Part shown: positions 8,350 through 60,722 of the stretch, in pieces | Position numbering within the stretch: the stretch's first letter is position 1 | How the letters are laid out: each line of letters starts with the position of its first letter | Source of the DNA: Aureimonas altamirensis | Lineage (GTDB): Bacteria; Pseudomonadota; Alphaproteobacteria; Rhizobiales; Rhizobiaceae | Direction of reading: 5' to 3' | Assembly: GCF_023702225.1 (NCBI RefSeq) | Contig: NZ_JAMQCO010000007.1 | Coordinates: 62,001 to 126,000 of the forward strand | Length of the DNA: 64,000 nucleotides | Notes under the pieces: generated by a model | The model's database searches: none | Told to the model about the DNA's origin: nothing | Seen by the model: the letters and a program-made list of their open reading frames with translations, nothing else | Made by a program: the position numbers and the translations under genes

Positions 8350-8820
8350 ATGAGCCTGCAGTCCGTACGCGCGTTCCTGAAGGAGCACGCCCCCGAAATC
8401 GTCGTCATGGAACTCGAGGTCAGCACCGCCACGGTTGCCGAGGCTGCGGCCGGCCATGGCGTCGAGCCCGGACAGATCGCCAAGACGCTGTCCCTGCGTG
8501 TCGGCGACAGGGTCGTCCTCGTCGTTGCGGCCGGCGATGCGCGGCTCGACAACCGCAAGGTGAAGCAGCTCCTGGGCGGAAAGCCCCGCATGCTGGACGC
8601 CGAGGAGGTGGAGCGGCTGACGAGCCATCCCGTCGGCGGGGTATGCCCTTTCGGCCTGCGCGCTCCCTTGCCGGTCTACTGCGACGTATCCTTGCGCGCG
8701 TGGGACATCGTGGTGCCCGCGGCCGGCTCGCGCAACAGCGCGGTGCGTATCGCGCCGGAGCGGCTCGCGGAGATCGCCGACGGCCGATGGGTGGATGTCT
8801 GCCAGTCCGCCGTCCCTTGA
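8350..8820 (+). CDS. YbaK/EbsC-family aminoacyl-tRNA deacylase-like protein
   Basis: A 156-residue YbaK/ProX-type protein. Family members hydrolyse mischarged tRNA (for example Cys-tRNA-Pro). The fold markers are QIAKTLSLRVGDRVVLVV with the conserved Lys, the KVKQLLGGKPRMLDAEEV helix, and the substrate-site loop HPVGGVCPFGL with the GGVCPFG signature. Length is standard. It is translationally close to the DUF72 gene. Specificity cannot be assigned from the sequence. Confidence 0.9.
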   Translation: MSLQSVRAFLKEHAPEIVVMELEVSTATVAEAAAGHGVEPGQIAKTLSLRVGDRVVLVVAAGDARLDNRKVKQLLGGKPRMLDAEEVERLTSHPVGGVCPFGLRAPLPVYCDVSLRAWDIVVPAAGSRNSAVRIAPERLAEIADGRWVDVCQSAVP

Positions 8821-8986
8821 ATACCGGCGGTTTCATTCTTTGCAAAATGGCAGGCGAGACCTTATAGCTTGCGCGCAAAGCCGCGCGGCATTAGGTGCTG
8901 CACGACATCATTCGTGGCCCGAACCGTCATAAAATCGCTGCCGTCCTTGCGCATCGATCGGGCAGCCAGCATCAGGAGATGGAACC

Positions 8987-9268
8987 TTGTCCAACACCTT
9001 CGACCGGGTCGCCGACATCATCGCCGAAACCAGCGAGATCGACCGTTCCAAGATCACGCCGGAAAGCCACACGATCGACGATCTGGGCATCGACTCGCTC
9101 GATTTCCTGGACGTCGTCTTCGCGATCGACAAGGAATTCGGCATCAAGATCCCGCTGGAAAAGTGGACGCAGGAGGTCAATGACGGCCAGGTCGACACGG
9201 AAGAGTATTTCGTCATGAAAAACCTCTGCGCCAAGATCGACGAATTGCGCGCCGCCAAGGCAGCCTGA
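8987..9268 (+). CDS. acpXL: Acyl carrier protein for lipid A very-long-chain fatty acid
   Basis: A 93-residue acyl carrier protein. The 4'-phosphopantetheine attachment site is Ser37 in GIDSLDF. It is longer at the C-terminus than AcpP and ends [17 protein letters not shown], as in AcpXL, which carries the C26-C28 hydroxylated fatty acid to lipid A in Rhizobiales. The start is TTG 8987, fixed by a strong CAGGAGA ribosome-binding site; no ATG is available. It begins the operon that runs to lpxXL, with 14 bp to the next gene. Confidence 0.93.
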
Positions 9269-48442: not shown

Positions 48443-48752
48443 CCTGGTGTCCGAAAAACCGGCAGCGGCTCACAGTTACGACACGGACCTACCGGGACGC
48501 AGCACCCTCTAAAGCTCCTCGCCAACTGGCTTTTCGGCACCCATTAAATACCTAAACCGTTGTATCGATAACTGTAAGCATCGCATCAATCGTGACAACT
48601 ACCGAATTCGGCGGAAGGCGCGCGTATGTCTCGCAATAGCGAGACCTGCGGGTCGATTCGATTGTCTATCAAGCGTGGAGCGTCACATGGATGTAACACA
48701 TGAGCCGAAGGCGGATCGCCTAAGACACTGATATCATCAATAAAAATGAGCA
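48443..48752. other. Intergenic region without a recognisable gene
   Basis: About 310 bp between the IS3 remnant and tRNA-Gln. The only structure seen is a short perfect hairpin at 48628-48645 (GTCTCGC-AATA-GCGAGAC) with no U-tract. Base composition is lower in GC than the flanks. No supportable coding frame or RNA was found. Confidence 0.5.
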
Positions 48753-48827
48753 TGGCTGGGGCGCCTGGATTCGAACCAGGGAATGGCGGTACCAAAAACC
48801 GCTGCCTTACCGCTTGGCTACGCCCCA
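48753..48827 (-). tRNA. tRNA-Gln (TTG anticodon)
   Basis: A complete cloverleaf on the minus strand. The acceptor TGGGGCG pairs with CGCCCCA, the anticodon loop TTTTGGT carries TTG, and the T-arm is CCTGGTTCGAATCCAGG. The CCA is encoded at 48753-48755. The first base is U, as in standard tRNA-Gln. Confidence 0.96.
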
Positions 48828-48956
48828 CCGGCCGCTGTCGCAGCGCTGGCTCTATACCCCCTCCGGCGCGCACTGGCAATCAGCGCACGGAGCCAAAATT
48901 TTGCCGAAAGAACCGCTTGCACCGCACTCGCCCCGCCGCTATACGGACGGCGGTTT

Positions 48957-49033
48957 CGGAGTGTAGCGCAGCCTGGTAGCGCACCTCGTTCGGGACGAGG
49001 GGGTCGCAGGTTCGAATCCTGCCACTCCGACCA
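48957..49033 (+). tRNA. tRNA-Pro (CGG anticodon), attachment site of the element
   Basis: A complete cloverleaf: acceptor CGGAGTG pairs with CACTCCG, anticodon stem CTCGT/ACGAG around loop TCGGG, T-arm GCAGG-TTCGAAT-CCTGC, CCA encoded. Its 3' 48 bases form the left attachment site of the element, so integration regenerates an intact tRNA. Confidence 0.96.
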
Positions 49034-49034
49034 A
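48986..49034 (+). repeat. attL: 49-bp direct repeat, tRNA-Pro 3' end
   Basis: Identical over 49 bp to 59623-59671 and consisting of the anticodon-to-CCA part of tRNA-Pro plus one base. It marks the left end of the integrated element. The integrase gene starts about 60 bp inside, ending toward this site. Confidence 0.93.
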
Positions 49035-49092
49035 TCTTCTCAGTACTTTACTGAGGCCCTCCCGACTATACGGCAACGATAACGGCAACGAC

Positions 49093-50199
49093 TCACAGTC
49101 GGCCGGCCTTGCCGCGCGTGAACGCATCCCCGACCGCTGATTGATGGTCTGGGTGGTGATGCCCGTAAGTTTGCTCAAGCGTTTCGCGCGTCATGCCGAG
49201 ATAGCCAGACGCCTGCCACATATCGACGCCTGACTGCATAAGCCAAGTCGCCGCCGTATGGCGGAGCGTATGCCGCACGACGCCGACTCCCTCCTCCCCC
49301 AGCACGTCGCGGACAAGGTTCCGATACGCCCGTTTTGGGTCGGCTGGCCTGCCCTGATACTCGACGACATATTGCGCGCCGTTCCTGTGCCACCGTCGCA
49401 TGTGCGAAAGCAGGCGCTTAGGAAGGCGAATGGGCGGAGCCTTCTTGTTCGCAGCCACCCGCTCATCTGGGGCAGCTCGATAGAAAACGCCGGCCTTTAG
49501 GTCGACGTACGGCCGATTAGCCTCTGGCACGAACGATGCCTGCCAGACGCGTGCCGACCGGCTCCCGGTATAGGTGGCGGCAAGCAGAAAGCGCGCAACG
49601 TGCAGGGTGGCCCTCTTCTTGGTTGGGGCTCCCCTCTGCACTTCACGCTTGCGGTATGCAGCCCATATCAAACGCGCCAACGCGTCCCGTTCCAGGTGGG
49701 CAACGCGCCCCTTTGGTTTCGGCGGTAATGTCACGGTGACGGCCTGTCGCGTCACGTTGTCAGCGATTGCCATCCGGCAAGCGGCTCTCAGATCCTCGAG
49801 CTCGCGCCGCGCCATGCTCTGAGATTTCCTGGATGCGACATAAGCCTTGCACGTCGCGGTTGTGATGTCGTCCAGGGTCTTGTCGCCCCAGAAGGCAAGC
49901 AATGCCTCTGCACGTGCTGCAAGCTCTGTCGGACGGCGCGCTGCGTCCGCCTTGACTGAAAGATAGTGGGCAATCACCTCGGCAACCTGGACCTCCTTAG
50001 CTGCCCTTCCCGTCTGCTTTGGAGCGACGATGAACTGGCGGGCTATGTGTTCGGAGAGCGCTTCCTGAGCGCCTTGCACATCAGCAGCGCTGCATCCCGT
50101 GCCGTATTGCTTGCCGCCGTCGAGGATGATCCAGACAGCGTCTCGGTCTTTGCCAGCGGGTCTGAGCCAGAGGCGTGCTGGTTTGCGGGCACGAGGCAT
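49093..50199 (-). CDS. Tyrosine recombinase integrase
   Basis: A 368-residue site-specific recombinase. The catalytic residues are visible: Arg in YTGSRSARVW, His-x-x-Arg in HTLRHTAATWL, and the nucleophile Tyr in ETLEQTYGHHH. It lies at the attL end and reads toward it. It mediates integration and excision at tRNA-Pro. The start ATG 50199 is inside the excisionase-like gene, an overlap of 157 bp. Confidence 0.94.
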   Translation of the reverse strand: MPRARKPARLWLRPAGKDRDAVWIILDGGKQYGTGCSAADVQGAQEALSEHIARQFIVAPKQTGRAAKEVQVAEVIAHYLSVKADAARRPTELAARAEALLAFWGDKTLDDITTATCKAYVASRKSQSMARRELEDLRAACRMAIADNVTRQAVTVTLPPKPKGRVAHLERDALARLIWAAYRKREVQRGAPTKKRATLHVARFLLAATYTGSRSARVWQASFVPEANRPYVDLKAGVFYRAAPDERVAANKKAPPIRLPKRLLSHMRRWHRNGAQYVVEYQGRPADPKRAYRNLVRDVLGEEGVGVVRHTLRHTAATWLMQSGVDMWQASGYLGMTRETLEQTYGHHHPDHQSAVGDAFTRGKAGRL

Positions 50200-50381
50200 T
50201 TTGCTTTCATCTCCTCGATTGCGGAAAGGGTCGTAAAGTCCTTGCCTGCAATCCTCATAAGGGTAAGTCGCCCTCGCCTGGCCTCTCGACGTAGGCCGGC
50301 TGCGGTAATTCCCCCGAGGGGGAAGGCTATCGGGATAATGTCCGTCAGGCGGACAGGGGTATTGTCGTTTGCCGCCTGCAT
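50043..50381 (-). CDS. Excisionase-like small DNA-binding protein
   Basis: A 112-residue protein. ATG 50381 has an AGGGAGA site. The N-terminal 55 residues (LTDIIPIAFPLGG, then GLRREARRGRLTLMRIAGKD) resemble the winged-helix excisionase-like proteins found upstream of integrases in Rhizobiales. The C-terminal part overlaps the integrase gene by 157 bp, and the tail is of low complexity. Probably a recombination directionality factor. Confidence 0.65.
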   Translation of the reverse strand: MQAANDNTPVRLTDIIPIAFPLGGITAAGLRREARRGRLTLMRIAGKDFTTLSAIEEMKAKCLVPANQHASGSDPLAKTETLSGSSSTAASNTARDAALLMCKALRKRSPNT

Positions 50382-50439
50382 GGAATCTCCCTGGTGATGA
50401 TCGTTGGAGTATTCATTGAAGGGCGAATGCCCACTTCGA

Positions 50440-50790
50440 TCAAGCCGCACCGAGATAGTAGTCAAAGCCGCACTTATGGCGGTCCACTCCAGTGACGCCT
50501 TCGAGATAGCGAGCGATCGATTGAGTCAGGCGGTCATGCTGAGCCTGCAGCGCGGCGCGGACGTCCGGCGCGCAGGCTCGAGACAACCGGTCGCCCACCT
50601 GGCAGAGCAGGCCGACGTGAAAGAGCGCGGCTTCCTTGCTCTTGGCTTCCTGAAATGTTGCAACGGTCTCGAGGGCGGACAACCGGCGTGGGTCAACTGC
50701 GCCGGCCTTGATAGCGTCTTCAGCTCGAGCGGCAGTGACGGCTGCGAAATTGTCGCCGCGAAGGGTAAAGGGCTTGGTCTTCCGGGTCAT
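50440..50790 (-). CDS. Hypothetical element protein (116 aa)
   Basis: A helical, Ala-rich protein (VRAALQAQHDRLTQSIARYL) with no motif I can name. It lies upstream of the excisionase-like gene on the same strand and is the first gene of the leftward early transcript, just behind the divergent control region. Start ATG 50790 lacks a strong ribosome-binding site. Confidence 0.5.
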   Translation of the reverse strand: MTRKTKPFTLRGDNFAAVTAARAEDAIKAGAVDPRRLSALETVATFQEAKSKEAALFHVGLLCQVGDRLSRACAPDVRAALQAQHDRLTQSIARYLEGVTGVDRHKCGFDYYLGAA

Positions 50791-50807
50791 AACACTTGCT
50801 CGCGTTT

Positions 50808-50876
50808 GTTAGCAGATTGCTAACCTATGCCGGGGCAGATTGGACTTGTCAACCATCATTTGCTAACAAATGCGAA
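50808..50876. promoter_or_regulatory. Divergent control region with paired operators
   Basis: Between the leftward gene at 50790 and the rightward gene at 50901. A perfect palindrome GTTAGCA-GAT-TGCTAAC lies at 50808-50824. A second site at about 50857-50870 contains the same TTTGTTAGCA-type sequence in inverse orientation (TGCTAACAAA). Between them on the minus strand is a consensus -35 TTGACA (50847-50852), with a -10-like CATAGG near 50824-50829 overlapping the first palindrome. The layout is that of a lysogeny-type switch. Confidence 0.6.
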
Positions 50877-50900
50877 CGAACCTGAAGGGCTTGGAAAAGA

Positions 50901-51071
50901 ATGTCCGCGACTAGAACCGCCAGCATCGGAATCCGTGTTGTGCCGCAAGTTAAAGAGGCTCTCGAGAAAGCTGCTAAAGCCGATCGTCGGTCGGTCGCCA
51001 GCTACATCGAGACGCTTATCGTCAGCGATCTTGAGGCAAAGGGCTTTCTTCATCCAGGCGCCGCCGAGTGA
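50901..51071 (+). CDS. Ribbon-helix-helix (CopG/Arc-like) DNA-binding protein
   Basis: A 56-residue protein. The pattern ASIGIRVVPQVKEALEKAA followed by DRRSVASYIETLIVSDLE is typical of ribbon-helix-helix repressors: a beta-strand then two helices. It is preceded by TTGGAA and its stop codon overlaps the next start (GTGA). A likely candidate to bind the paired operators just upstream. Confidence 0.7.
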   Translation: MSATRTASIGIRVVPQVKEALEKAAKADRRSVASYIETLIVSDLEAKGFLHPGAAE

Positions 51072-51313
51072 CCGACGACGGCCCTCGCCTCCTGTCGCGC
51101 CACGAGGCTGCTGCCTACTGTGGATGCAGCCCGTCGACCTTCTCAAGGTGGGTGACAGAGGGATATTTGCCCCGCCCGCTCTTCGGGTCCAAGCGGTGGG
51201 ACAAGCGCGCAATCGATGCAGCTATTGACCGGGCGTCTGGCATCGATACCGCGAAGACGGAAGAGGTAGATCCGATGGAGAAATGGCTGAAGGGGATCGG
51301 CGTGAGTCGCTAG
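51068..51313 (+). CDS. AlpA/MerR-like helix-turn-helix protein
   Basis: An 81-residue protein, GTG start at 51068, overlapping the previous stop by 4 bp. The HTH is LLSRHEAAAYCGCSPSTFSR followed by WVTEGYLPRPLF, as in AlpA-like and excisionase-type regulators of prophages and satellites. In PICI-type islands such AlpA-like proteins activate early genes. Confidence 0.7.
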   Translation: MTDDGPRLLSRHEAAAYCGCSPSTFSRWVTEGYLPRPLFGSKRWDKRAIDAAIDRASGIDTAKTEEVDPMEKWLKGIGVSR

Positions 51314-51408
51314 ATCTAGCCCCAGTGTGTGGATATCGCCCACTACATGTTGCGTTAAATCGGATGTTCTGCCATTGTTCTCGCATTGCAACTGATGCGG
51401 AGGCAGCC

Positions 51409-51738
51409 ATGCGCGCCTACATGATAACTTACGACAAGCGGCCCGGTGTCAATTACGACGGACTGCATGATTACCTTCGGATGCTGAACGGCAGATCGCC
51501 TGCGCAATCTGTTTGGTTCGTCAGCTCGCCGTACAGCGCGGAGTACTTGAGAGATTCGATCCGAACATTCCTCGGGGTAGCCGACCGGTTGATCGTTATC
51601 GAAATGAAGGTCGGTGCCGACTGGGCTACCCGAAACGCAGATGAGAACGCTGCAGAATGGCTGAGCGTAAACGTTGCTCCGTCAGGACCGCCGTCTAACG
51701 GTCAAGTACTCGGCCCTCTCTCAAGCCTATACCGGTAG
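51409..51738 (+). CDS. SinR/Cas2-fold small protein
   Basis: A 109-residue protein with the start ATG 51409 and a GGAGG site 6 bp before. The N-terminus MRAYMITYDKRPGVNYDGLH, then SVWFVSSPYSAEYLRDSI and RLIVIEMKVGADWAT, give the ferredoxin-like beta-alpha-beta order and sequence style of SinR-family proteins, which are Cas2-like in fold. No CRISPR array or cas1 gene is near. Function may be an RNase or toxin-like activity or anti-phage accessory; unproven. Confidence 0.55.
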   Translation: MRAYMITYDKRPGVNYDGLHDYLRMLNGRSPAQSVWFVSSPYSAEYLRDSIRTFLGVADRLIVIEMKVGADWATRNADENAAEWLSVNVAPSGPPSNGQVLGPLSSLYR

Positions 51739-51742
51739 GAAC

Positions 51743-51766
51743 AGGGCCAGCCTTCCCGCTGGCCCT
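51743..51766. terminator. Bidirectional terminator after the Cas2-fold gene
   Basis: AGGGCCAGC-CTTCCC-GCTGGCCCT, a 9-bp stem with short U-tract, just past the stop at 51738 and just before the tape-measure gene end at 51774 on the opposite strand. It separates converging transcripts. Confidence 0.8.
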
Positions 51767-51773
51767 TCTTCAA

Positions 51774-53836
51774 TCACGAGCGTCGCAATTGCTGGTCGCG
51801 CTGCTGGGCAGGCCAGGCACGTTGCGCTTGGCTCATACCTGCACCGACATTGGCTCTGGATATCTCGTCCGCACGGCGATCGACGAAGGCTTGCAGGTTG
51901 CCGTTCTGATCGACTGCCACACGCACGTTGACTGGCGCGCTCTGCTGTCTCCCTGCCCTCGCTGTCGGAGTCTTCAGGTCAACCGGTATGCGGCGACCAT
52001 CGGGCAACGGAACAGCTGCCTCCGGTCCAGCTTCACCGAAGATCGAAGCGGACTTGGCGATGCCGCCTCGGGCGAATGTCCGGGGTCGACCATGAGCGGC
52101 AACACCGCCGTCCTTGAACCCGAACACCTTGCCGAGAAGACCCAAAGGACCGCCACCGCCACCCTTGCTATCGAAGATGTCGTTCAAGCTGATCTCGATC
52201 AGTCGATCGACCACCTTGCTCAAGGCATTCGACAGGGCTTCGGACGCGCTGACGCCGTTGCGCATATCCTGAATGAAGCCGCCGATGGCCTCTTTCTGGA
52301 TGCTGCGGAAATCCTCGGCAGATTGTCGTACCCGGTCCTGACTTTCCGACAGCTTTGCGGCCTCGGCGGACGCACTGCCATAGCCATCGGCCAGAGCATC
52401 GATCTGCGCCTGCAACTCGGGCGTGATCGCAATCCCGGCTTCTTTCGCTGCGGTTAGCAAATCCTGCTGAGTGCGGGCACGCTCCAGCGCATAGCCATAG
52501 TCGTCGATCAGCGGATTGAGCTGCGCCATGGCAGCCGTCTCCGCGCGCATGGCGTCGATCTGCCCCTGCGTGCGCTCCAACTCGCGGCCAAAGCGATCCT
52601 CGCTTGAGCGACCGCCTCCGCCTCTTCCGCCGCCGCGTCCCTTGCGACCACCGGACCCACCGCCCGAACTTCTGGGAGGTGGCGCATAATCTGCCAAGGT
52701 GATCGGGGTGATGCCACCACCAGGGACGTCAACGACGGTCCCAGACGGCGTTAGGCCTGACCCAGCGGTGTCGTCGAACGCATTGTCGATGCGGCTTTGG
52801 ATCTTCTTGTTTTCGGCGTCGACCTTCGCACGCTCAGCCCTCAGCCCCCGTACGTAGTCTCCGAAACTGCTTGCGCCGGTCAGGTTACCAAGCGCGCACC
52901 CGCCATCTCTTGGATTTTGCCGATAACCCCAATCAGGGCACCTGCGAAATCCATCGCTCCCTGGATCAAAGGAGAGAAGTCGGTCTCGGCAATCACCTTC
53001 GACAAAGCCGACAGCGCTTCCGAGACCCGATCGCTGGCGTCGGTGCCTTCGTCCAGTTTGCGCGCGGTGTCGACCAGCACGTTCTGAAGCCGAACAAACG
53101 ATCCGGAGATAGTAGTCTCGGCGCCCGAAAGCTGTTGCTCCAGGATGGCCGCGCCTGCCTGTCCGGCACGGAAAAATGCCTCGGACGACACCTGGCCGCT
53201 TTTGACCAATTGCGTCAGTGTCGCAACTGATCCCCCGGCCTCTTTCATCCCTGCCGCAACCGCCTGTAGAAGCGGGCGCGCGCCGTCGAGAAGCGAATTG
53301 TATTCTTCGGCCTGGATGACACCGCCCCCAAGCGCCTGGCTAAGCTGCAAGAGCGCCCCTTGCGCCTCGGTTGCAGACTGCCCCGATGCACGAAGGGACA
53401 TGCCCACGAGATCCGTGAACTGCACGATCTCCTGATTGGAGACGTTGAGTTCCTTCTGCGCGACGGTCAGGCGGCTGTAGAGCGTGACTAGGCTCTCGAT
53501 CGGCACCGCGTTGCGCTGCGCGCTCTCAAAAAGCTGGTTGTAGACCGAAGTCAGTGCCTCGCCTTCGAGACCAGCAACGCGAAGTGAGTTCGTGATGCGA
53601 GTGGCAGCATCCAGAAGCTGTTGCGCGCCACGAGCCGATGCAATGCCCGCGAATGCTCCTGCCAGCCCACCCAGACCACTGAACTGAGACTGCAGTTTTT
53701 TGTTCATCGATGCAAAACGGCTTTCAACACGCCTCGCACTACGGTCCGCAGACGATGAAATGGCAGCCATTTGCCGCTCGAACTTGTTCTGCGAGACCTC
53801 TAGCCTGACTAGCAGGCGCTCAACCTCACTCGCCAT
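51774..53836 (-). pseudogene. Phage tape measure protein, frameshifted
   Basis: The N-terminal part (53836 down to about 52885) has ASEVERLLVRLEVSQNKFERQ, LGGLAGAFAGIASARGAQ and TLYSRLTVAQKELNV, typical of tape-measure proteins. Frame 1 stops at 52880 (EMAGARLVT). A second frame begins at the same place with GNLTGASSFGDYVRGLRAE and continues through a Gly-rich linker to GPLGLLGKVFGFKDGGVA and the end at 51774. A one-base loss near 52885 (TTGGT for TTGGGT) would restore one 687-residue frame. The protein is short for a tape measure. ATG 53836 has a GGAGGAGC site. Either a true mutation or a sequencing error. Confidence 0.8.
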
Positions 53837-54071
53837 TGATCCGCTCCTCCATAATTCCGGGCGCCGCCGCGAAAAGTTCAACCCAACGCCCGACATCGTC
53901 GTCAGCGAGCGCGACGGTCATCGCAAGCGCAAGCAAGGCCTCGATTTTCTCGTGAGTGGTGCACCCGGCCGTCGTCATAGCCGCGACGGCTCGCTCAGTG
54001 ATCCGCTGTGCAATGTCCGCCTCATCGAGCGAGCGGACAACAGCTAGTTGCAAAGGCGTCATCGCGACCAT
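53826..54071 (-). CDS. Small hypothetical phage protein upstream of tape measure
   Basis: An 82-residue helical protein (PLQLAVVRSLDEADIAQRIT). ATG 54071 has a GAGGAA site. It overlaps the tape-measure start by 11 bp. In siphoviruses this position usually holds tail-assembly chaperone genes, so that role is possible; no signature confirms it. Confidence 0.5.
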   Translation of the reverse strand: MVAMTPLQLAVVRSLDEADIAQRITERAVAAMTTAGCTTHEKIEALLALAMTVALADDDVGRWVELFAAAPGIMEERINGE

Positions 54072-54130
54072 GGTTTTCCTCGTACATGGAATGAAGGTGG
54101 CGGCGATCACTACGATCGCCGCCCGTAGGC

Positions 54131-55201
54131 TCAGAATTCGCCGAAGATGATGCTTTCCGGCCGCTTCACGGCGAGCGCAAGGCGTCCCTCGGCGCGTATC
54201 GTCACCATGTTCCGGATGAAGTTGTCGCGGTCCTCGGTCGATACCTGGACCGTCGCGTCTTGGCGCGTGTACACGGTCGCAGCATCAGCGAAGTTGCCCA
54301 CCAGGAAGGTGCCGGGCGCCATATTGAGCGACGTTGCCACCGGTAGAGTCCATACACGCTTGACGGTGGCCTCGAAGGCGCCGCCGGACAAGTAGGAGCC
54401 GTCCGTCTTCTTCAGAAGCAGCATCGTCCACCAGTCAGTTGGATGCAGGATGATGCCGGTCGCGGGCAGCTTCGCGAGCTCTGACTGCAGGATGGCCCAA
54501 GCGAGCGTGTCGACGTTCGTTGCACCCGCGGGAATGCCAGCCGGGTCGTAATCGGTCGCGTTGGGGATAAGCCCGTGCAGGTTCTCGCCGATGCCGGAGC
54601 CGTTCAGCAACTGCTGCTCGACTTCATCTTCGAAACCATACCGGAGGTCCGAGTCTATCATGTCAGCAAGAGCCGGCGCGTCATCCAGAACTTGGAGGGA
54701 CGCCGGAATCCAGTGCGCGATCGTTTTTACGTCAGCTTTCGCTGCGGTGAACGCGATGCTCGACTCCGGCTTGAGCTGTCCTTCCGCCACCGGAGCAGCC
54801 GCATTTGTGAAGCCCGTTTGCCGGGTGTACTCGACGCTCTTCGCCGTGGTGTTCGCGCCGCTAAGGAGCTGCCGAACCATCAGCGGCTTGCGGGCAAGCG
54901 CCTGAATGTCGCTTTCACGATCGACGCGAACCGCGTTGCCGACATCGGCCGTTGTGATGAGCGCCTTAGACTCGAGCGTAATGCGCGCCGTGCCGTGTTT
55001 TTCACGCGCCAGGGTCTCGAACTGCTCGGACTTCACGGCAAGCTGGCCGGCGGTCTTCGTCTCGACGGGCGCACCACCGAAGCGGTTGGCCTTCCTCTCG
55101 ATGTCGTCGAGGCGGGCGTGCGTCGCCTTCAGGCTATCGGCCAGCCCCTTGATCTCGCCGTGATAGGTTTCGAACTGCTTCGTCAGCGTCTCAATGCTCA
55201 T
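54131..55201 (-). CDS. Phage major capsid protein, HK97 family
   Basis: A 356-residue protein with the HK97 capsid pattern: an N-terminal coiled-coil scaffold-like delta domain (residues about 10-55, SIETLTKQFETYHGEIK), then the mature chain with LMVRQLLSGANTTAKSVEYTR, IPASLQVLDDAP and the C-terminal NMVTIRAEGRLALAVKRPES. ATG 55201 overlaps the protease stop as ATGA. It forms the procapsid with the protease just upstream. Confidence 0.93.
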   Translation of the reverse strand: MSIETLTKQFETYHGEIKGLADSLKATHARLDDIERKANRFGGAPVETKTAGQLAVKSEQFETLAREKHGTARITLESKALITTADVGNAVRVDRESDIQALARKPLMVRQLLSGANTTAKSVEYTRQTGFTNAAAPVAEGQLKPESSIAFTAAKADVKTIAHWIPASLQVLDDAPALADMIDSDLRYGFEDEVEQQLLNGSGIGENLHGLIPNATDYDPAGIPAGATNVDTLAWAILQSELAKLPATGIILHPTDWWTMLLLKKTDGSYLSGGAFEATVKRVWTLPVATSLNMAPGTFLVGNFADAATVYTRQDATVQVSTEDRDNFIRNMVTIRAEGRLALAVKRPESIIFGEF

Positions 55202-55848
55202 ATCTTCATTCCCTTCAGTTCGGCAGCCGCAGCCTTCACGAGGCCGGCCAGATGGTTGAATTCTTCGGTTTCGGGGTCGATCTGGAGCGCATCCCATCCG
55301 CGTGCGGCGACACGTTCTGCATCGCGCTCGGAGAGGCCGGCCTGTGCGAGGAAGTGAGCGAATTCGTCGCCACTCAACGCGCTCTTGAGCATGATGCGGC
55401 TCGAGGGGTTGGCCGGGATAGCGACGATTGACACCTCTTTGAGGTCGATCTCGGAAATCTGGTAGACGCCTGGCTGAGCCGACTTCCTGCCCCCTGGCGG
55501 CGTTCTGAAGCCGATTGAAAGGCCCGTGACGTCGCCGGCCCGCACGTACGCAAGCGCCTCTCGGCCGGCAGTCGTATCCAGATTGAACTTGCCTTCGACC
55601 AGCAGCCCGCGGCTGTCCTCGCGGACTGCATGCCAAGAGCCGCAGGGCCGCGCCTGGTCGTGCGCCCACAGCATGGGCACCCGGCCAGATGAGCTGGCAA
55701 GGCTCTTCGTAAAGGCGCCAGGCAGTATGACGTCGCCATACGAGTCAGGAACGTCGTTGAAAGTTGAGCCATAGCCAGAAACGGCGCCGGCGTCGGCGTC
55801 CTGTAGCTTCAGCTCGAGCGGCGCGCCGGCTTTAAAAAGCTCAGACAT
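55198..55848 (-). CDS. Prohead protease, HK97 family
   Basis: A 216-residue serine protease of the herpesvirus-assemblin type. Catalytic His is in LWAHDQARPCG and Ser in GLSIGF, with SGYGSTFNDVPDSYGDVI at the start of the domain. ATG 55848 follows GGGAGG. It processes the capsid delta domain and is translationally coupled to the capsid gene. Confidence 0.93.
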   Translation of the reverse strand: MSELFKAGAPLELKLQDADAGAVSGYGSTFNDVPDSYGDVILPGAFTKSLASSSGRVPMLWAHDQARPCGSWHAVREDSRGLLVEGKFNLDTTAGREALAYVRAGDVTGLSIGFRTPPGGRKSAQPGVYQISEIDLKEVSIVAIPANPSSRIMLKSALSGDEFAHFLAQAGLSERDAERVAARGWDALQIDPETEEFNHLAGLVKAAAAELKGMKI

Positions 55849-55964
55849 TGATGCCTCCCTTGCGCGCACGCGCGCGCATGAATCGAAAAATCTGTATTAG
55901 CGATAAAAGAAGATTGCCCGCCGGTGTCCCTGTGGGATGCCCCAGAGATCGAGGTGCCCCCCGG

Positions 55965-56234
55965 TCACAGTGGCCATCCGTCTGTCCCGATGGGTCGTCG
56001 CCGTCGACGATGGCCGAACTGCTGCGCCGTGCGTTCGAGGTGGCAGTCGCGGCATAGGCTGCGGCAGTTGTCGTCCTCATCCTTGCCGCCTTGCGACAGC
56101 GGGATGATGTGATCGACCTCGGTAGCCTCACGCGTCCGACCTGCATCATGGCAGTCACGACAGAGCGGCTCCTGTGCCAACCTGCGGCGTCTCTGTGCCA
56201 TCCCAGCGCGCCCTCGCCTGCGCACTATCATCAC
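55965..56234 (-). CDS. HNH endonuclease
   Basis: An 89-residue nuclease with the HNH pattern: C-x2-C-H in CRDCH, EVDHIIPLSQGGKDE with catalytic His, then NCRSLCRDCH. In HK97-like phages an HNH nuclease assists terminase in DNA packaging. No terminase gene is adjacent here. ATG 56234 overlaps the previous stop. Confidence 0.9.
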   Translation of the reverse strand: MMIVRRRGRAGMAQRRRRLAQEPLCRDCHDAGRTREATEVDHIIPLSQGGKDEDDNCRSLCRDCHLERTAQQFGHRRRRRPIGTDGWPL

Positions 56235-56680
56235 GCCGGCACAGGCTCTGATTTTGCGAACTCATGGGTGCAGGCAGCGATGCGAGCCGCGATGAGGCCG
56301 GCTGGCGACGCGAACGCGCCAGGCTGCGCCATTAGAGCGCTTGCCTTGCCCAGCATCACGAGCTTTGCCTCGTTCTGCTGCGGCAGGCCGACGAGCATCA
56401 TGTAGCCGGGCTGCTCCGCTGGATCGGCTGTGCCGCGCTTGGTCTCTAGGTGAGCCAGGCAGTAGGCATGGTCGATCCGATAGCCGTGCCGGATGAGTTC
56501 ATTCGCCAAGGCAACGACATAAAGGTCAGCCGCAGAGAAGAAGCGATTGCCCTTTGTCTTTCCAGACACCAGGTCGACGGCACCTTTGTGCAGATGGGTC
56601 CGTATGGTGGCTTCGGGAATGCCGGTAATTTCTGCGGCTTCAACGGACGTGAAGACGCGGTCGGTCGGTCGCAGTGTCAC
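56231..56680 (-). CDS. MerR-like helix-turn-helix regulator
   Basis: A 149-residue protein starting at GTG 56680 with a GGAGGAGC ribosome-binding site. The N-terminal HTH (FTSVEAAEITGIPEATIRTH) is MerR-like; the rest has a hydrophobic helix ADLYVVALANELIRHGYRI. Likely a regulator of the structural block. It overlaps the HNH start by 4 bp. Confidence 0.7.
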   Translation of the reverse strand: MTLRPTDRVFTSVEAAEITGIPEATIRTHLHKGAVDLVSGKTKGNRFFSAADLYVVALANELIRHGYRIDHAYCLAHLETKRGTADPAEQPGYMMLVGLPQQNEAKLVMLGKASALMAQPGAFASPAGLIAARIAACTHEFAKSEPVPA

Positions 56681-56920
56681 GTCCGCTCCTCCGTTTTGTG
56701 GGGAATATTTGTCGATGGATAAAAAGAGCGACGCCCGGCCGAAGCCGAGGCGCCATGCATCGCCGGTACTTCCGCGGTCGATGCGAAATAGGGTGCAGCC
56801 CTTCCCCAGTTTGGGGACGCGAGAAGGGCTGCGGCTCTTGCAATCCGCACTACAAGAGGTCGCCGCAATGGTGACAGCCATCACGGCGCATGGCCTGAGG
56901 AGCGCTCAGGACAATGAAAA

Positions 56921-56940
56921 GGCCCGCGCGATGGCGGGCC
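56921..56940 (-). terminator. Terminator after the hypothetical gene at 56980
   Basis: GGCCCGC/GCGGGCC 7-bp stem followed on the minus strand by TTTTC, about 40 bp downstream of the stop at 56980. The remaining stretch 56681-56979 holds no supportable gene. Separates the rightmost block from the MerR-like/HNH/structural block. Confidence 0.7.
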
Positions 56941-56979
56941 AAACTGTAATTCCTACTATGTAGATCCGCGGAGAGGCTT

Positions 56980-57741
56980 CTAGGTGCACCCGGCCTGATC
57001 ATACTCGGCGAACAGGCCAACGAGGCGAGACAGGCCGCAAACGACACGGTCCTTACCGACCGCCTCGGCCTGCTTGCCCTTATACCCCGACGCCTCGCCT
57101 ATCGCGCCGAAGCCAAGCCCGGCAGTGGCGTCGTAGATTGCTTCAAAATGCTCGGGCGACATTCTGAATTTCAGCCAGGATATCGTACTGCGAGCGTCGA
57201 AGGTGTCGCGGGCAGTAGTAGCCTGGGAATGCCCACCGGAGGCGTACCGAGGTGTCGCGACATTGTCGGGGAACTTCGGATGGCTCGACGATACCCATAC
57301 GTCTCCGCCCGCCTTCGATTCCTTGTTCAGGCGGTAGCCAATGACGATACCGGCTTGGTTGAACTTGTATCGCCCGGCCCGGCTTGGCGACGTCGTAACC
57401 GCGTCGAGAGCGTCGAAATTGTCATTGGCAGGTACGTGCAACCGCACTGGCTCGTGCAGCTCCAGTGGCCCGTCGTCGTAGTCCGCGATAACGCGCTCCG
57501 CAGACCTTCCCTGAACCTCACGCGATGGCGTTTGGCCTGAGTAGTCCTCAGTGTCGGCCGCGCCCTCAAGCCATCGCGGGTAACAGCTCTCGGCTTCCGC
57601 CTCGCCGATCGTAGCATCGAACCGCAGGAAGGCCCGCAGCGCGGCGAGACTGGCCTCTGGCGTAGGGAATAGCCGCCCGGCCTTCAATCGATCGAGGACT
57701 GGAGTTGAATGGCTGCGAGCGGCAGCGTTTGCATTCGTCAT
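56980..57741 (-). CDS. Hypothetical element protein (253 aa)
   Basis: A protein of unknown function starting at ATG 57741 with an AAGGAGC site. Patterns: STPVLDRLKAGRLFPTPEAS at the N-terminus, HVPANDNFDAL in the middle, and HFEAIYDATAGLGFGAIGEA near the C-terminus. No catalytic motif is evident. It may be a phage-type replication or packaging accessory. The palindrome cluster lies upstream of it. Confidence 0.6.
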   Translation of the reverse strand: MTNANAAARSHSTPVLDRLKAGRLFPTPEASLAALRAFLRFDATIGEAEAESCYPRWLEGAADTEDYSGQTPSREVQGRSAERVIADYDDGPLELHEPVRLHVPANDNFDALDAVTTSPSRAGRYKFNQAGIVIGYRLNKESKAGGDVWVSSSHPKFPDNVATPRYASGGHSQATTARDTFDARSTISWLKFRMSPEHFEAIYDATAGLGFGAIGEASGYKGKQAEAVGKDRVVCGLSRLVGLFAEYDQAGCT

Positions 57742-57927
57742 GATTGCGCTCCTTGATGCGGCTCTGTCCAGCCGGAGCGCCCATGCGGCACTCTTAGATA
57801 TATAGTGTTCGGCGAAGATTTTGAGGAGGTCGGCAGCGAATTTATGCTGCGCTGAGAAAGGCCGATATCGGCGGCGGTGGCATTTCCAGTGCGGAAACGC
57901 TACGCCCCGTGTTGGCCCGCTTCGGTC

Positions 57928-58038
57928 GTCACTGTGTTCAGAACACAGTGACCCGGAACCTCTATCTTGTGATCGATCACAAGATGCGCCGCGCACCGTT
58001 GAACAGCCCGGTCGTCACTATCCAATTTGGATAGTGAC
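57928..58038. repeat. Cluster of three perfect palindromes, two with shared arms and different cores
   Basis: In the 380-bp gap 57742-58121, with no gene. Palindrome 1, 57928-57952: 12-bp arms GTCACTGTGTTC / GAACACAGTGAC around A. Palindrome 2, 57964-57985: 22-bp perfect, ATCTTGTGATC-GATCACAAGAT. Palindrome 3, 58014-58038: GTCACTATCCAA / TTGGATAGTGAC around T. Palindromes 1 and 3 share the flank CGGTC, outer arm GTCACT and AGTGACCCGGA, but their inner 6-bp stems differ completely and still pair, so they covary. Function unknown. Confidence 0.8.
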
Positions 58039-58121
58039 CCGGAGCCCCGCACTTACACCACCAAACACGGCACCGAAGCCACGATGAACACAGCAAACAT
58101 TGGTCGCATCGTGGTGCGGGC

Positions 58122-59249
58122 TCAAGCTGCCCTGAGATCCCCGTCAGCCAGGATGGTGAAGCGCCGACCGTGCAGTTCGCCAGTATCATCGATAGCGTCT
58201 AGCCCGGCAGCTGTAGCAAGCTCCCCAAGACGTCGCTGCCCCCTAGCCTGCTCAGACGCATCGTTGCTTTCGATATCGATCGACATGGTTTCTAAGGCGC
58301 CATCGTCTCGGCGAAGGGAAAGCCTCAAGACCGTCGCGCGCCCTTCATCTGCAACCTCGCTCGCGACAACTTCCACTACGCGGGATGGATGGAAGGGAAG
58401 CCGCGTCGCAGGCGCCAGTATGGCGGGCGCAGCGGGACGATTACTGTTAGCGGCTGGAACTCGCGCCTTCGGAGCCTTCGCCTTGTAGCCTGCCGGAGGG
58501 TCGCACTCGAACTCTTCACGCTCGAGCCATTTCGCCAAGGTGTAGCGAGCAGCCTGTGGATTGCCCTGCTCTTCCCATCGCATCCGCCATGCGGTTGCCG
58601 CTTCGACGAGACGGGCCTGCATCTCGGCGTCTGGATTCAGGCTCTTGTAGGCTGCGCGTGCCTCGGCTTTCTTCTGCCGGTGGCCGTAGGCGATCCACAA
58701 CGACTCAAAACCTCCAGCCGAAACCGCGACCTCCGCCCCCACAGGGAAGGAGGGAAGCGGCGCCGTCGGCGCGGCTGGATCAAGATCTCTTTCCGTAAAC
58801 ACGGTTATTGTAACCGGTTTACGTAAGAGGGATTCGGTATCGTCAGCGATACCGCTAGAGCCCTTAGAGGTATTGCCTGCAATACCTCCTGCGGTATCGT
58901 CAGCAATACCGCTAGCTTCCACCGCCTCAGCGGTATCGTGGGCGATACCGCTAGACGTGAATGCGAAGTTTAGGCCGTACTCGGTTGGCCTGGTGCCAAG
59001 CCCTTCACGCACGATGAGGATGGCCTGTCTGTCCAGGAGGCGGCGCAGTGCCGCAATGATATTCGGCCGGGTTGCTTTGGTCGCGCGCTCGAGAAACCGC
59101 AGGCTCACGCGAGCGTTGCCATGCGCCTCCATGTATCGCTCGACGATTTCCGCGAAGATCTTATGGTCAAGCCGGGTGGACCACTCTGAGCGGATGAGCT
59201 CGACGACCAGGATGTGACGTGCGAGCAGACCGCCAGATTTAGCGGTCAT
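58122..59249 (-). CDS. Putative replication protein with N-terminal winged helix
   Basis: A 375-residue protein. The N-terminal 100 residues (LVVELIRSEWSTRLDHKIFAEIV, shown in part as LIRSEWSTRLDHKIF; ATKATRPNIIAALRRLLDR; ILIVREGLGTRPTEYGLN) resemble a replication-initiator-type winged helix. A middle stretch has four GIA(D/H/G)(D/N)T motifs, encoded by a DNA palindrome cluster at 58835-58952, and the C-terminal half may contact other replication proteins. The layout (DNA-binding N-terminus, palindromic repeats in the coding sequence, C-terminal partner domain) recalls phage lambda O. ATG 59249 has a GAGG site. Confidence 0.6.
   Translation of the reverse strand: MTAKSGGLLARHILVVELIRSEWSTRLDHKIFAEIVERYMEAHGNARVSLRFLERATKATRPNIIAALRRLLDRQAILIVREGLGTRPTEYGLNFAFTSSGIAHDTAEAVEASGIADDTAGGIAGNTSKGSSGIADDTESLLRKPVTITVFTERDLDPAAPTAPLPSFPVGAEVAVSAGGFESLWIAYGHRQKKAEARAAYKSLNPDAEMQARLVEAATAWRMRWEEQGNPQAARYTLAKWLEREEFECDPPAGYKAKAPKARVPAANSNRPAAPAILAPATRLPFHPSRVVEVVASEVADEGRATVLRLSLRRDDGALETMSIDIESNDASEQARGQRRLGELATAAGLDAIDDTGELHGRRFTILADGDLRAA
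58835..58952. repeat. Four palindromic repeats (iteron-like), candidate replication origin
   Basis: Four inverted repeats inside the replication gene. The first, 58835-58854, is CGGTATCG-TCAG-CGATACCG; the second, 58867-58888, is GAGGTATTGC-CT-GCAATACCTC; the third, 58891-58912, is like the first with one mismatch; the fourth, 58929-58952, is AGCGGTATCG-TGGG-CGATACCGCT. Centres are about 33, 24 and 39 bp apart. A moderately AT-rich stretch lies beside them at about 58800-58835. Each encodes a GIADDT-like hexapeptide. Pattern of lambda-O-type iterons. Confidence 0.75.
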
Positions 59250-59490
59250 TGTCGGCCTCATAGGCGGCAAGCGCGAGGCTAGTGAGGTGCTTGGACATCG
59301 CGACAGAGAACGTCGCCGTGCGGCGCTTCCCGGCTTGCGGTGCGAACAAGAAGTGAGAGCCGTCCGACATGCGGAGGAGGCGCAAAGCGTAAAGCCTAAC
59401 GTGGTCGTTCAGCTCGATGTCGACAGATGCTAGGCAGGTGTTTCCGTCCCGCTGGATCTCGTCCAGCCGGTGCGCGTAGAGAACTCGCAT
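59239..59490 (-). CDS. Small hypothetical protein, SpoVG-like pattern
   Basis: An 83-residue protein with VDIELNDHVRLYALRLLRMS and LFAPQAGKRRTATFSVAMS. The order beta-strand, beta-strand, Arg-rich loop is reminiscent of SpoVG-like nucleic-acid-binding proteins; this is weak. ATG 59490 has an AAGGAA site and its stop overlaps the replication gene start by 11 bp, so it is the first gene of the minus-strand block read from attR. Confidence 0.55.
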   Translation of the reverse strand: MRVLYAHRLDEIQRDGNTCLASVDIELNDHVRLYALRLLRMSDGSHFLFAPQAGKRRTATFSVAMSKHLTSLALAAYEADNDR

Positions 59491-59622
59491 GGCAGTTTCC
59501 TTGGGTTAGGTTTGGCGTGCCACGGCAACGATTGGCAACGATACGACGGAACAAACCGCGTTTCGTTGACGCAAACGATACCGATAAGCTGTTGAATCTG
59601 CTAGAATTTTGAGAAGGAATGG

Positions 59623-59671
59623 TCGTTCGGGACGAGGGGGTCGCAGGTTCGAATCCTGCCACTCCGACCAA
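59623..59671 (+). repeat. attR: 49-bp direct repeat of the tRNA-Pro 3' end
   Basis: Identical to 48986-49034. It has the tRNA anticodon-side, T-arm and CCA, but not the 5' half, so it is not a functional tRNA gene. It marks the right end of the element. Normal chromosomal genes resume with the LysR regulator. Confidence 0.93.
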
Positions 59672-59762
59672 ATTTCCCGCTGATCTCGCTACTGCTTTGA
59701 AAACGCCCTTCGGGGCGCCGAAAACACGAATGGCGAGACGGGTTCGGCGAACGGCGATTGCG

Positions 59763-60722
59763 TCAATTGCCTTCTATCGGGCCGCGCCGCCGCATGCCTT
59801 CTCCCGTATCGAGATCATCCGGTGTGCCCGCCATTGCTCCGCCGCGCATAGCGGCGGCCATGGCGTCAAGGAAGACCCGCACCTTCCGGGGCTGGTTGTG
59901 GCGGCTGGCGTAGAGGGCGACCACCGGCGCCGCGTCTTCGCTCCAACCGGGCAGCACCCGTTCCAGCCGGCCGCTCGCGAGATCGTCCCGAAGGTCGACG
60001 ATCGACCTCAGCGTGATTCCGTATCCGCCGAGACACCAGTCATGCAGGACGTCGCCGCTGTCCGCGCGCAGCCGCGGCTGCGCGGCGATCGTTGCAGAAC
60101 GACCGTCCGGGCTCGACAAGGTCCACGGGGCGATGCCGTCACCGTACCGCAGGAGCGCGTGGGCGGAGAGGTCTGTCGGCATAGCAGGCCGCCCATGGCG
60201 GTCGAGGTAGGCGGGAGAGGCAGCCAGCACACGATGATTGTCGGCGAGCTTGAGCATCGTCGCGCTTGCGTCCGCCAGTCCCCCGATCCGGACGGCCACG
60301 TCGACGGAGCCACCCACCACATCGACAAGCCGGTCGTCCAGCGACAGCAGAACGGCAAGTTGCGGATGGCGCTCCGTCAGAGCGCCCAGGACCGGCGCGA
60401 CATGGCGGCGACCGAAAGAGACCGGTGCCGAAACCCGAAGCGTGCCGACCGGCTCGTCCCGCCCGGTCGCCAACAGCGCTTCGCCCTGCGCGATCGCTTC
60501 CAGGGCGCGGTCCACCTCGACCAGCAGCCGCTCGCCCTCCTCGGTCGGTGACAGGCTGCGCGTCGTGCGGTTCACCAACCGCACGCCGACGCGCCTCTCG
60601 AGCGTCGCAAGCCGCTTGCTGACGACGGCAAGGGTCACACCAAGCACACGAGCAGCGCCGGTGAGCGAGCCGCTGACGAGCACCTGGCGGAAGGTGCGCA
60701 GTTCGTTCAGATCGCTCAGCAT
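59763..60722 (-). CDS. LysR family transcriptional regulator
   Basis: A 319-residue LTTR. HTH at the N-terminus: ELRTFRQVLVSGSLTGAARV then LGVTLAVVSKRLATLERRVG, and a substrate-binding domain with VGTLRVSAPVSFGRRHV. It is divergent from the SDR gene with 138 bp between, so it probably regulates it. The ligand is unknown. Confidence 0.9.
   Translation of the reverse strand: MLSDLNELRTFRQVLVSGSLTGAARVLGVTLAVVSKRLATLERRVGVRLVNRTTRSLSPTEEGERLLVEVDRALEAIAQGEALLATGRDEPVGTLRVSAPVSFGRRHVAPVLGALTERHPQLAVLLSLDDRLVDVVGGSVDVAVRIGGLADASATMLKLADNHRVLAASPAYLDRHGRPAMPTDLSAHALLRYGDGIAPWTLSSPDGRSATIAAQPRLRADSGDVLHDWCLGGYGITLRSIVDLRDDLASGRLERVLPGWSEDAAPVVALYASRHNQPRKVRVFLDAMAAAMRGGAMAGTPDDLDTGEGMRRRGPIEGN

Follow-up and report, generated by a model that had tools for sequence, protein, structure and literature searches.

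The question raised by this locus is why two palindromes with the same outer arms and different cores should both have stayed perfectly symmetrical. In the window, i.e., the whole stretch of 64,000 nucleotides from Aureimonas altamirensis that was analysed, P1 (57928-57952; GTCACTGTGTTC-A-GAACACAGTGAC) and P2 (58014-58038; GTCACTATCCAA-T-TTGGATAGTGAC) are 25-bp palindromes with perfect 12-1-12 symmetry, to which no strand is assigned and which we regard as putative ParB-like sites. Each of them is enclosed in a 35-bp repeat unit of the form CGGTC[25]CCGGA on the + strand (57923-57957 around P1 and 58009-58043 around P2), which reads in the + frame as RSSLCSEHSDPEP and RSSLSNLDSDPEP, respectively. 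Their half-sites differ at five of 12 positions (7 and 9-12), and all five differences are Watson-Crick compensated. The earlier note, which had drawn attention to the identical outer arms and the compensated cores, was thus right about the perfection of both palindromes, but it counted six changed inner pairs where there are five, position 8 (T-A) being common to P1 and P2. The third perfect palindrome of 22 bp, which it had placed between them, was found as well: P3 (57964-57985, no strand assigned) has 11-bp arms, paired at 11/11 positions, and belongs to a second class of sites, the ATCT type. In the 4.33-Mb genome of the organism P1 and P2 are the only two matches to GTCACTN10-16AGTGAC, a motif that 100 dinucleotide shuffles of the window failed to produce even once; a dispersed rhizobial palindrome of the RIME type is ruled out by this occurrence at a single locus of the genome and not in several copies.

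According to the earlier note, a protein-site model could not account for a divergent core that stays palindromic, while a selected stem could: the palindromes would work as RNA hairpins or extruded cruciforms, and compensation would maintain the stem. P1-P3 do all fold strongly when single-stranded (z from -2.65 to -5.94 for + strand DNA, the RNA folds being also strong), and on the + strand, folded as DNA, each of P1 and P2 continues its stem beyond a 2-base bulge, with 3 additional pairs in P1 and 6 in P2, a feature absent from the earlier note. However, the sole terminator-like site in 57600-58300 lies at 57712-57726 and none at P1-P3, nor is there any Rfam match at the palindromes, two tRNAs being the only ones in 48500-60000 (E<=1). 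It also speaks against a selected stem that comparable sites are found between genes and within other genes.

A different origin is suggested by the 380-bp gap itself. Described as free of genes in the earlier note, it contains the remnant of a ParB-like gene (58006-58110, + strand), consisting of a linker and a RTYTTKHGTEATMNTANIG tail motif and matched by the family profile with E 2.8e-7 in a search of the whole genome. When the gap was used as the query of a DNA search in 297 family genomes, 22 besides our own gave matches with E <= 0.01. The clear ones (E < 1e-6), L266 (E 7.2e-8) and L267 (E 1.4e-7), fall within genes of ParB-like proteins, at the peptide RTYTTKHGTxATMNT, which is encoded in the window on the + strand directly after P2; the tail peptide of the window is 82% identical to that of L266 over 22 residues. 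Blastn in phages and plasmids returned short weak matches only. The half-site of P3 shares 11 of 12 bases with the linker site of another ParB-like gene, L309 (+ frame SCDRSQDAPRTVE in P3 and SCDRSQDSSRTV in L309). Neither the HTH of the remnant (negative by profile search) nor its N-terminal domain is detectable; a degenerate HTH upstream of P1, considered as a candidate, was ruled out by profile search. The only other match to the ParB-like family in the host genome is L379, a distant ParB-like protein, which has no CT/AG site and only an unrelated 10-of-12 palindrome. Two loci met by quite different routes, L197 (found solely via the palindrome motif) and L016 (found solely via the Rep gene), have their palindrome within a ParB-like gene, right after the HTH.

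The same arrangement turned out to be common in the ParB-like family. From 96 ParB-like loci confirmed in viral contigs, the 80 best were retained; 85 loci were mapped, which were reduced to 70 without identical 120-nt starts and to 68 without stops and identical windows. Arms of at least 8 bp are present in the 60-nt coding linker right after the HTH in 45 of these 68 genes, as compared with 3/340 control windows from the same genes, and arms of at least 10 bp in 25/68 vs 0/340. Most of the linker palindromes (36/45) begin 62-70 nt past the SDREIA anchor. Synonymous codon redraws produce arms of at least 8 bp in 1.5% and of at least 10 bp in 0.19% of the draws (per gene, p <= 0.01 in 35/68). 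Without the five loci first met by other routes, the proportions are 41/63 genes vs 2/315 windows. The compensated cores are, as the earlier note had maintained, no accident, and they recur throughout this gene family. Linker arms of at least 8 bp are missing in 23/68 genes, and 14/68 have fewer than 9/12 pairs at the best centre.

Among the 53 distinct palindromes, i.e., those with at least 9/12 pairs, CT/AG pairs occupy distances 8 and 7 from the centre in 51/53 cases each, while at distances 4, 5, and 6 every type of pair occurs and mismatches number 8, 1, and 4 (of 53), respectively; at distance 5 there are 14 CG, 11 TA, 19 GC, and 8 AT pairs and 1 mismatch. As these palindromes were chosen for pairing, the pair counts are biased towards it, and it is the comparison of linkers with control windows that serves as the control. 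An outer WCT/AGW is common to nearly all sites. P1 and P2 match the family pattern. The near-invariance of the CT/AG pairs is what would be expected if an operator without family specificity were involved, one repressor reading only the outer arms of P1 and P2; in that case, however, the cores should have drifted from symmetry, and they mostly stay paired, so that such an operator is hardly credible.

The proteins encoded by these genes are related to ParB. The PHROG profile of ParB-like partition proteins matches a family protein with E 6.9e-18, PDB profiles give matches to ParB (E 8.5e-6) and sulfiredoxin, and Pfam ParB_N is matched by one of three proteins only. A ParB/sulfiredoxin-type N-terminal domain is found in the family, and it is directly followed by an HTH, next to whose codons a palindromic site lies in 45 of the 68 genes. 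For the L287 protein, modelled from 28 sequences (mean pLDDT 73, pTM 0.44; low confidence outside the N-terminal half), the N-terminal domain is predicted with confidence and is followed by the HTH, with its helices at 113-120 and 124-133, a short linker and a beta hairpin; the linker between the HTH and the hairpin is the stretch encoded by the palindrome. Foldseek with this model retrieved Spo0J (E 4.9e-5), Noc, ParB, and KorB. No ParA name was returned by PHROGs for ten neighbouring ORFs at four loci (five loci were queried). Some of the homologues are annotated as streptomycin biosynthesis regulators (StrR-type); the site of StrR is an inverted repeat. Among the plasmid homologues, L405 and L409 are annotated as DNA methyltransferases, and L400 overlaps a RuvC-like gene, these annotations pointing to fusions of a DNA reader with effector domains.

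The position of the palindrome at what the model predicts to be a domain border (HTH / beta hairpin) might also be that of a recombination site: a crossover within the palindrome would join ParB-HTH halves to different C-terminal domains, and P1-P3-P2 would be the scar of several such events. The C-terminal parts do vary among homologues, including those annotated as methyltransferases, and the window holds three consecutive linker pieces of two classes in different frames. Nevertheless, similar sites stand alone in intergenic DNA, and no recombinase is needed for the coupling between protein residues and site bases described below, so that module swapping seems an improbable origin of the palindromes.

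This coupling bears most directly on the question of the cores. The set consisted of the 54 of 68 sequences with at least 9/12 pairs, 48 of which remained after thinning at 90% identity. In the latter, the first residue of the recognition helix (column 147) is coupled to base 5 with z 13.5, and the variable residue of SD[R] (column 137) to base 6 with z 10.7. Of 1010 residue-base tests with 50 sequences, these two came out on top (z 13.3 and 10.1), followed by column 149 and base 1 (z 7.0). In the code table, built on all 54 sequences, base 5 is G with H at column 147 (18/19), C with E or D (13/13), A with Q or L (7/8), and T with N, P, T, or V (8/9), R following no rule (G 2, T 2). Base 6, in its turn, is G with R at column 137 (31/32), T with S, N, T, or C (11/12), C with G or E (5/5), and A with Y (2/3). 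Concordance between residue and base was seen in 25 (base 5) and 23 (base 6) of 27 disjoint nearest pairs. When the set was thinned according to the N-terminal domain, 27 sequences remained, for which the z values were still 8.3 and 8.1, and none of 2000 shuffles was as high. Leave-one-out prediction was correct in 42/49 and 46/50 cases vs 20 and 33 by a majority guess, whereas two control columns predicted no better than such a guess.

In our alignment (GKS-R173 to VS-147), column 147 appears to correspond to R173 of Caulobacter ParB and Q173 of Noc; residue 173 was reported as a specificity residue of ParB and Noc, Q173 reading adenine (PMC7383237). Bases 4-6 from the centre are likely to carry the specificity, and the two-residue table comes close to being a recognition code. 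Recognition by a symmetric dimer predicts that core bases follow HTH residues, whereas a stem makes no such prediction, and we consider a selected stem very improbable. The statement that only a stem explains the symmetry is at variance with the covariation of core bases with two HTH residues, and a shared protein-binding motif that would explain both cores, named in the earlier note as evidence against its own reading, is what the sequence comparison points to. Read by this code, P1 should belong to a protein that has R in its SD[R]EIA motif and whose recognition helix opens with N, P, T, or V, and P2 to one with Y at SD[Y]EIA (a rule derived from two of three cases) and again N, P, T, or V at the helix start. 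To P3 the code was not applied, because the register of L309 is shifted by one base; its reader would be an L309-like protein. Since the predicted specificities of P1, P2, and P3 all differ, three readers are implied.

The rules were also applied to 12 held-out genes (eight from Cyanobacteria, two from Chloroflexota, one from an alphaproteobacterium, and one from a phage) out of the 51 listed phage and plasmid homologues. Seven of the 12 had at least 9/12 pairs, and six were left when L406 (a GC repeat without CT/AG) had been set aside. Base 5 was predicted correctly in five of the six, the exception being L398, and base 6 in 4/4, all of them representing R->G, the commonest case. No usable linker palindrome is present in 6/12 held-out genes. 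Sites outside the gene agree with the rules as well. In L349 the linker is without a palindrome, but about 200 bp before the gene, in a stretch separating reading frames, there is a palindrome that obeys both rules. At L399 there are three 10-of-12 palindromes, of which only that located 747 bp upstream of the anchor has CT/AG; this site obeys both rules too.

Sites outside the own gene are found in other records as well. One motif, compared with ten viral records, was present in nine of them, with a second site of the own type in two. In G795 the second site immediately precedes an HNH endonuclease gene (with an earlier start, it would fall within the opening codons), and in G796 it lies, where it is one base off, between the major-head/protease gene and the head-decoration gene; in the same search, the further motif match in G799 was not of the own type, and G797 had none. 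L328 has a second own-type site at about 140-270, in another reading frame and 1.6 kb upstream; two half-site repeats of GGTCACTGC stand before it. In L196, a terminase large subunit gene has as its opening codons a perfect site-like palindrome (8776-8800, GTCACTGTCAAC-C-GTTGACAGTGAC). In three cases (G795, G796, and L196) the out-of-gene sites are thus near head or packaging genes, like the array in the window, a vicinity whose meaning is suggestive only.

Taken together, these comparisons make it highly probable that P1-P3 are parS-like sites for dimeric ParB-like phage HTH proteins, orphaned here and differing in specificity. In view of its position in the linker, its compensation and the coupling of HTH residues with its bases, the dimeric protein very probably binds to the linker palindrome of the gene that encodes it. 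A homodimer of the ParB-like protein would read two identical half-sites, so that a change in the specificity of the HTH would alter both half-sites together and produce a compensated core for which no hairpin function is needed. Within its own gene, the site could serve for autoregulation or as a loading site. In the window element the ParB-like gene has shrunk to a linker and a tail, with three sites of different predicted specificity persisting between replication and structural genes. These orphan sites would remain of use to the element, the simplest way being the recruitment of ParB-like proteins from co-resident phages.

The element itself is phage-like, 10.6 kb long, and integrated at tRNA-Pro between 49-bp attachment repeats, both on the + strand (48986-49034, at the end of the tRNA-Pro gene, and 59623-59671; start-to-start distance 10,637 bp). 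Its genes encode an integrase, tape-measure pieces, a phage capsid, a prohead protease, an HNH protein, a MerR-like HTH protein, and a Rep-like protein. The P1-P3-P2 array sits between the Rep-like replication gene (58122-59270, - strand; matched weakly, with E 0.0011, to a replication initiation protein in PHROG) and the next gene of the element (56980-57741, - strand), which has no Pfam or PHROG match and beyond which come the MerR-like, HNH, protease, and capsid genes. The database searches brought up no close relative of this element. The loci of Rep relatives have a gene order partly common with the element, and their gaps are in nearly all cases devoid of palindromes of the P1, P2, or P3 type. 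Among 23 Rep-family loci (duplicates included), a 12-of-12 site is present at one place only (L016, identical to L161) and 10-of-12 sites in L013 and L014; the other viral loci, which amount to 1.32 Mb and were in part retrieved via the GTCACT motif, have 16.

Further features of the element were noted. The interior of the Rep-like gene (58835-58954) contains dyad repeats, CGGTATCG..CGATACCG three times and GAGGTATTGC..GCAATACCTC once, which code for SGIADDT-like repeats and whose variants are also compensated; in-gene palindromes of different sequence are present in several Rep relatives. The tape-measure gene (51774-53896) is split into two ORFs corresponding to positions 1-286 and 560-857 of a 900-position PHROG profile, as if its middle had been lost, the relative L012 having a single ORF of 730 aa. 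In L012 the region matching the gap (8940-9268) contains a small + strand ORF (MQNGLYKVEFHTPQGG...), whose product we take to resemble a GrlR-type moron, and the gap may be a cargo spot.

As to the role of P1-P3, which is less certain than their nature, capture of a ParB-like protein of another phage, control of late genes, or the state of mere relics may be considered. It is quite possible, although somewhat short of an even chance, that they are true ParB-like sites of a dead gene and functionless in the element: the gene is truncated and its frames are shifted, and the identity still retained by the tail peptide to L266 suggests that the decay may be recent. Yet P1 and P2 are paired at 12/12 positions, as only 12/68 ParB-like linkers are, and P3 at all of its 11. 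Furthermore, in L016 the ParB-like gene beside Rep is broken and the 12-of-12 site is nevertheless kept. A perfect site is retained also in another Rhizobiaceae genome, G304, although no protein of the family was found in it: here GTCACTGTCAACGTTGACAGTGAC (locus L154), which we read as a putative orphan ParB-like site, is located just past an unrelated AAA_25 replication gene, the closest homologue found of this gene (74% identity) being without this palindrome. By a rough estimate from the density of such palindromes, its chance occurrence in 394 genomes was put at about 0.2.

Alternatively, P1-P3-P2 could be a multi-specificity ParB trap, a reading that we advance as possible but doubtful. 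A candidate phage satellite without a ParB-like gene of its own would have kept or collected the cognate sites of three readers, and the ParB-like protein of a helper or competitor would load beside the replication gene, ahead of the structural genes. If so, late expression or replication could be timed, partition stolen, or immunity to a ParB-like exclusion protein acquired in an aba-like manner.

Several searches for further palindromes can be added. In the viral contigs the motif GTCACTGT had 16 matches, four of them fully paired inside, L189 and L196 of these looking like one sequence; the motif GTCACTAT had 0/13 fully paired, and the control arms 1/26. A wider motif scan had none fully paired among the matches listed. 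Covariance model R1 missed the known site of G304, and its matches in G271 (L250, inside a coding gene) and in G151 (a dispersed repeat) were set aside. The palindrome dispersed in G151 (L252, L256, L257, L259, L260, and L261), TTTCACTGTTTC..GAAACAGTGAAA, has outer flanks that vary and are compensated between copies.

If phage ParB-like genes hold their own cognate site in the reading frame, reader and site would be inherited together; such a unit, family-wide and in one gene, together with a two-residue code, would give rise to many ParB-site pairs of different specificity. The code would allow the targets of a widespread and little-studied family of phage proteins to be predicted for each genome, and orphan sites in phage-like elements would extend the SGI1-type hijacking of helpers from plasmids to phage satellites. 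In addition, compensated palindromes need not imply RNA structure, for coevolution of protein and DNA can mimic the covariation of a stem. Intragenic cognate sites of this kind were not found described in the literature searched, most subscription papers being outside its reach; the main text of PMC12704722 makes no mention of palindromes, intragenic sites or StrR.

Among the known systems, folded sites are represented by the attC of integrons, with RYYYAAC/GTTRRRY core sites and the integron integrase, and a site within the gene of its own protein by B. subtilis, in which parS is located inside spo0J. The closest to the family described here are ParB-parS and Noc-NBS, which, as reported in PMC7383237, share the ParB/Noc fold, the placing of two DNA-binding domains on one palindrome, and a residue, 173, that sets a base of the half-site. 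However, chromosomal parS is one conserved sequence of 16 bp, whereas the sites considered here are of about 24-25 bp, variable from gene to gene and located within the gene of their own probable reader. A ParB-type fold is found also in KorB of plasmid RK2 (8qa8, 8qa9), there in a transcriptional repressor. In the BstA prophage defence the locus contains the cognate DNA self-immunity element aba, which is similarly a short DNA element in the locus of its own gene, each variant being cognate to its own protein; it differs in being 63 bp long, with terminal direct repeats, and in its position at the gene start, and the defence role is that of the BstA locus (PMC8585504). Finally, SGI1 is, like the element studied here, a parasitic integrated element with parS-like sites, two in number, and it uses the ParB of its helper plasmid (PMC10954446); there capture was shown experimentally, while the array of the window is known from its sequence and comprises three sites of different predicted specificity.
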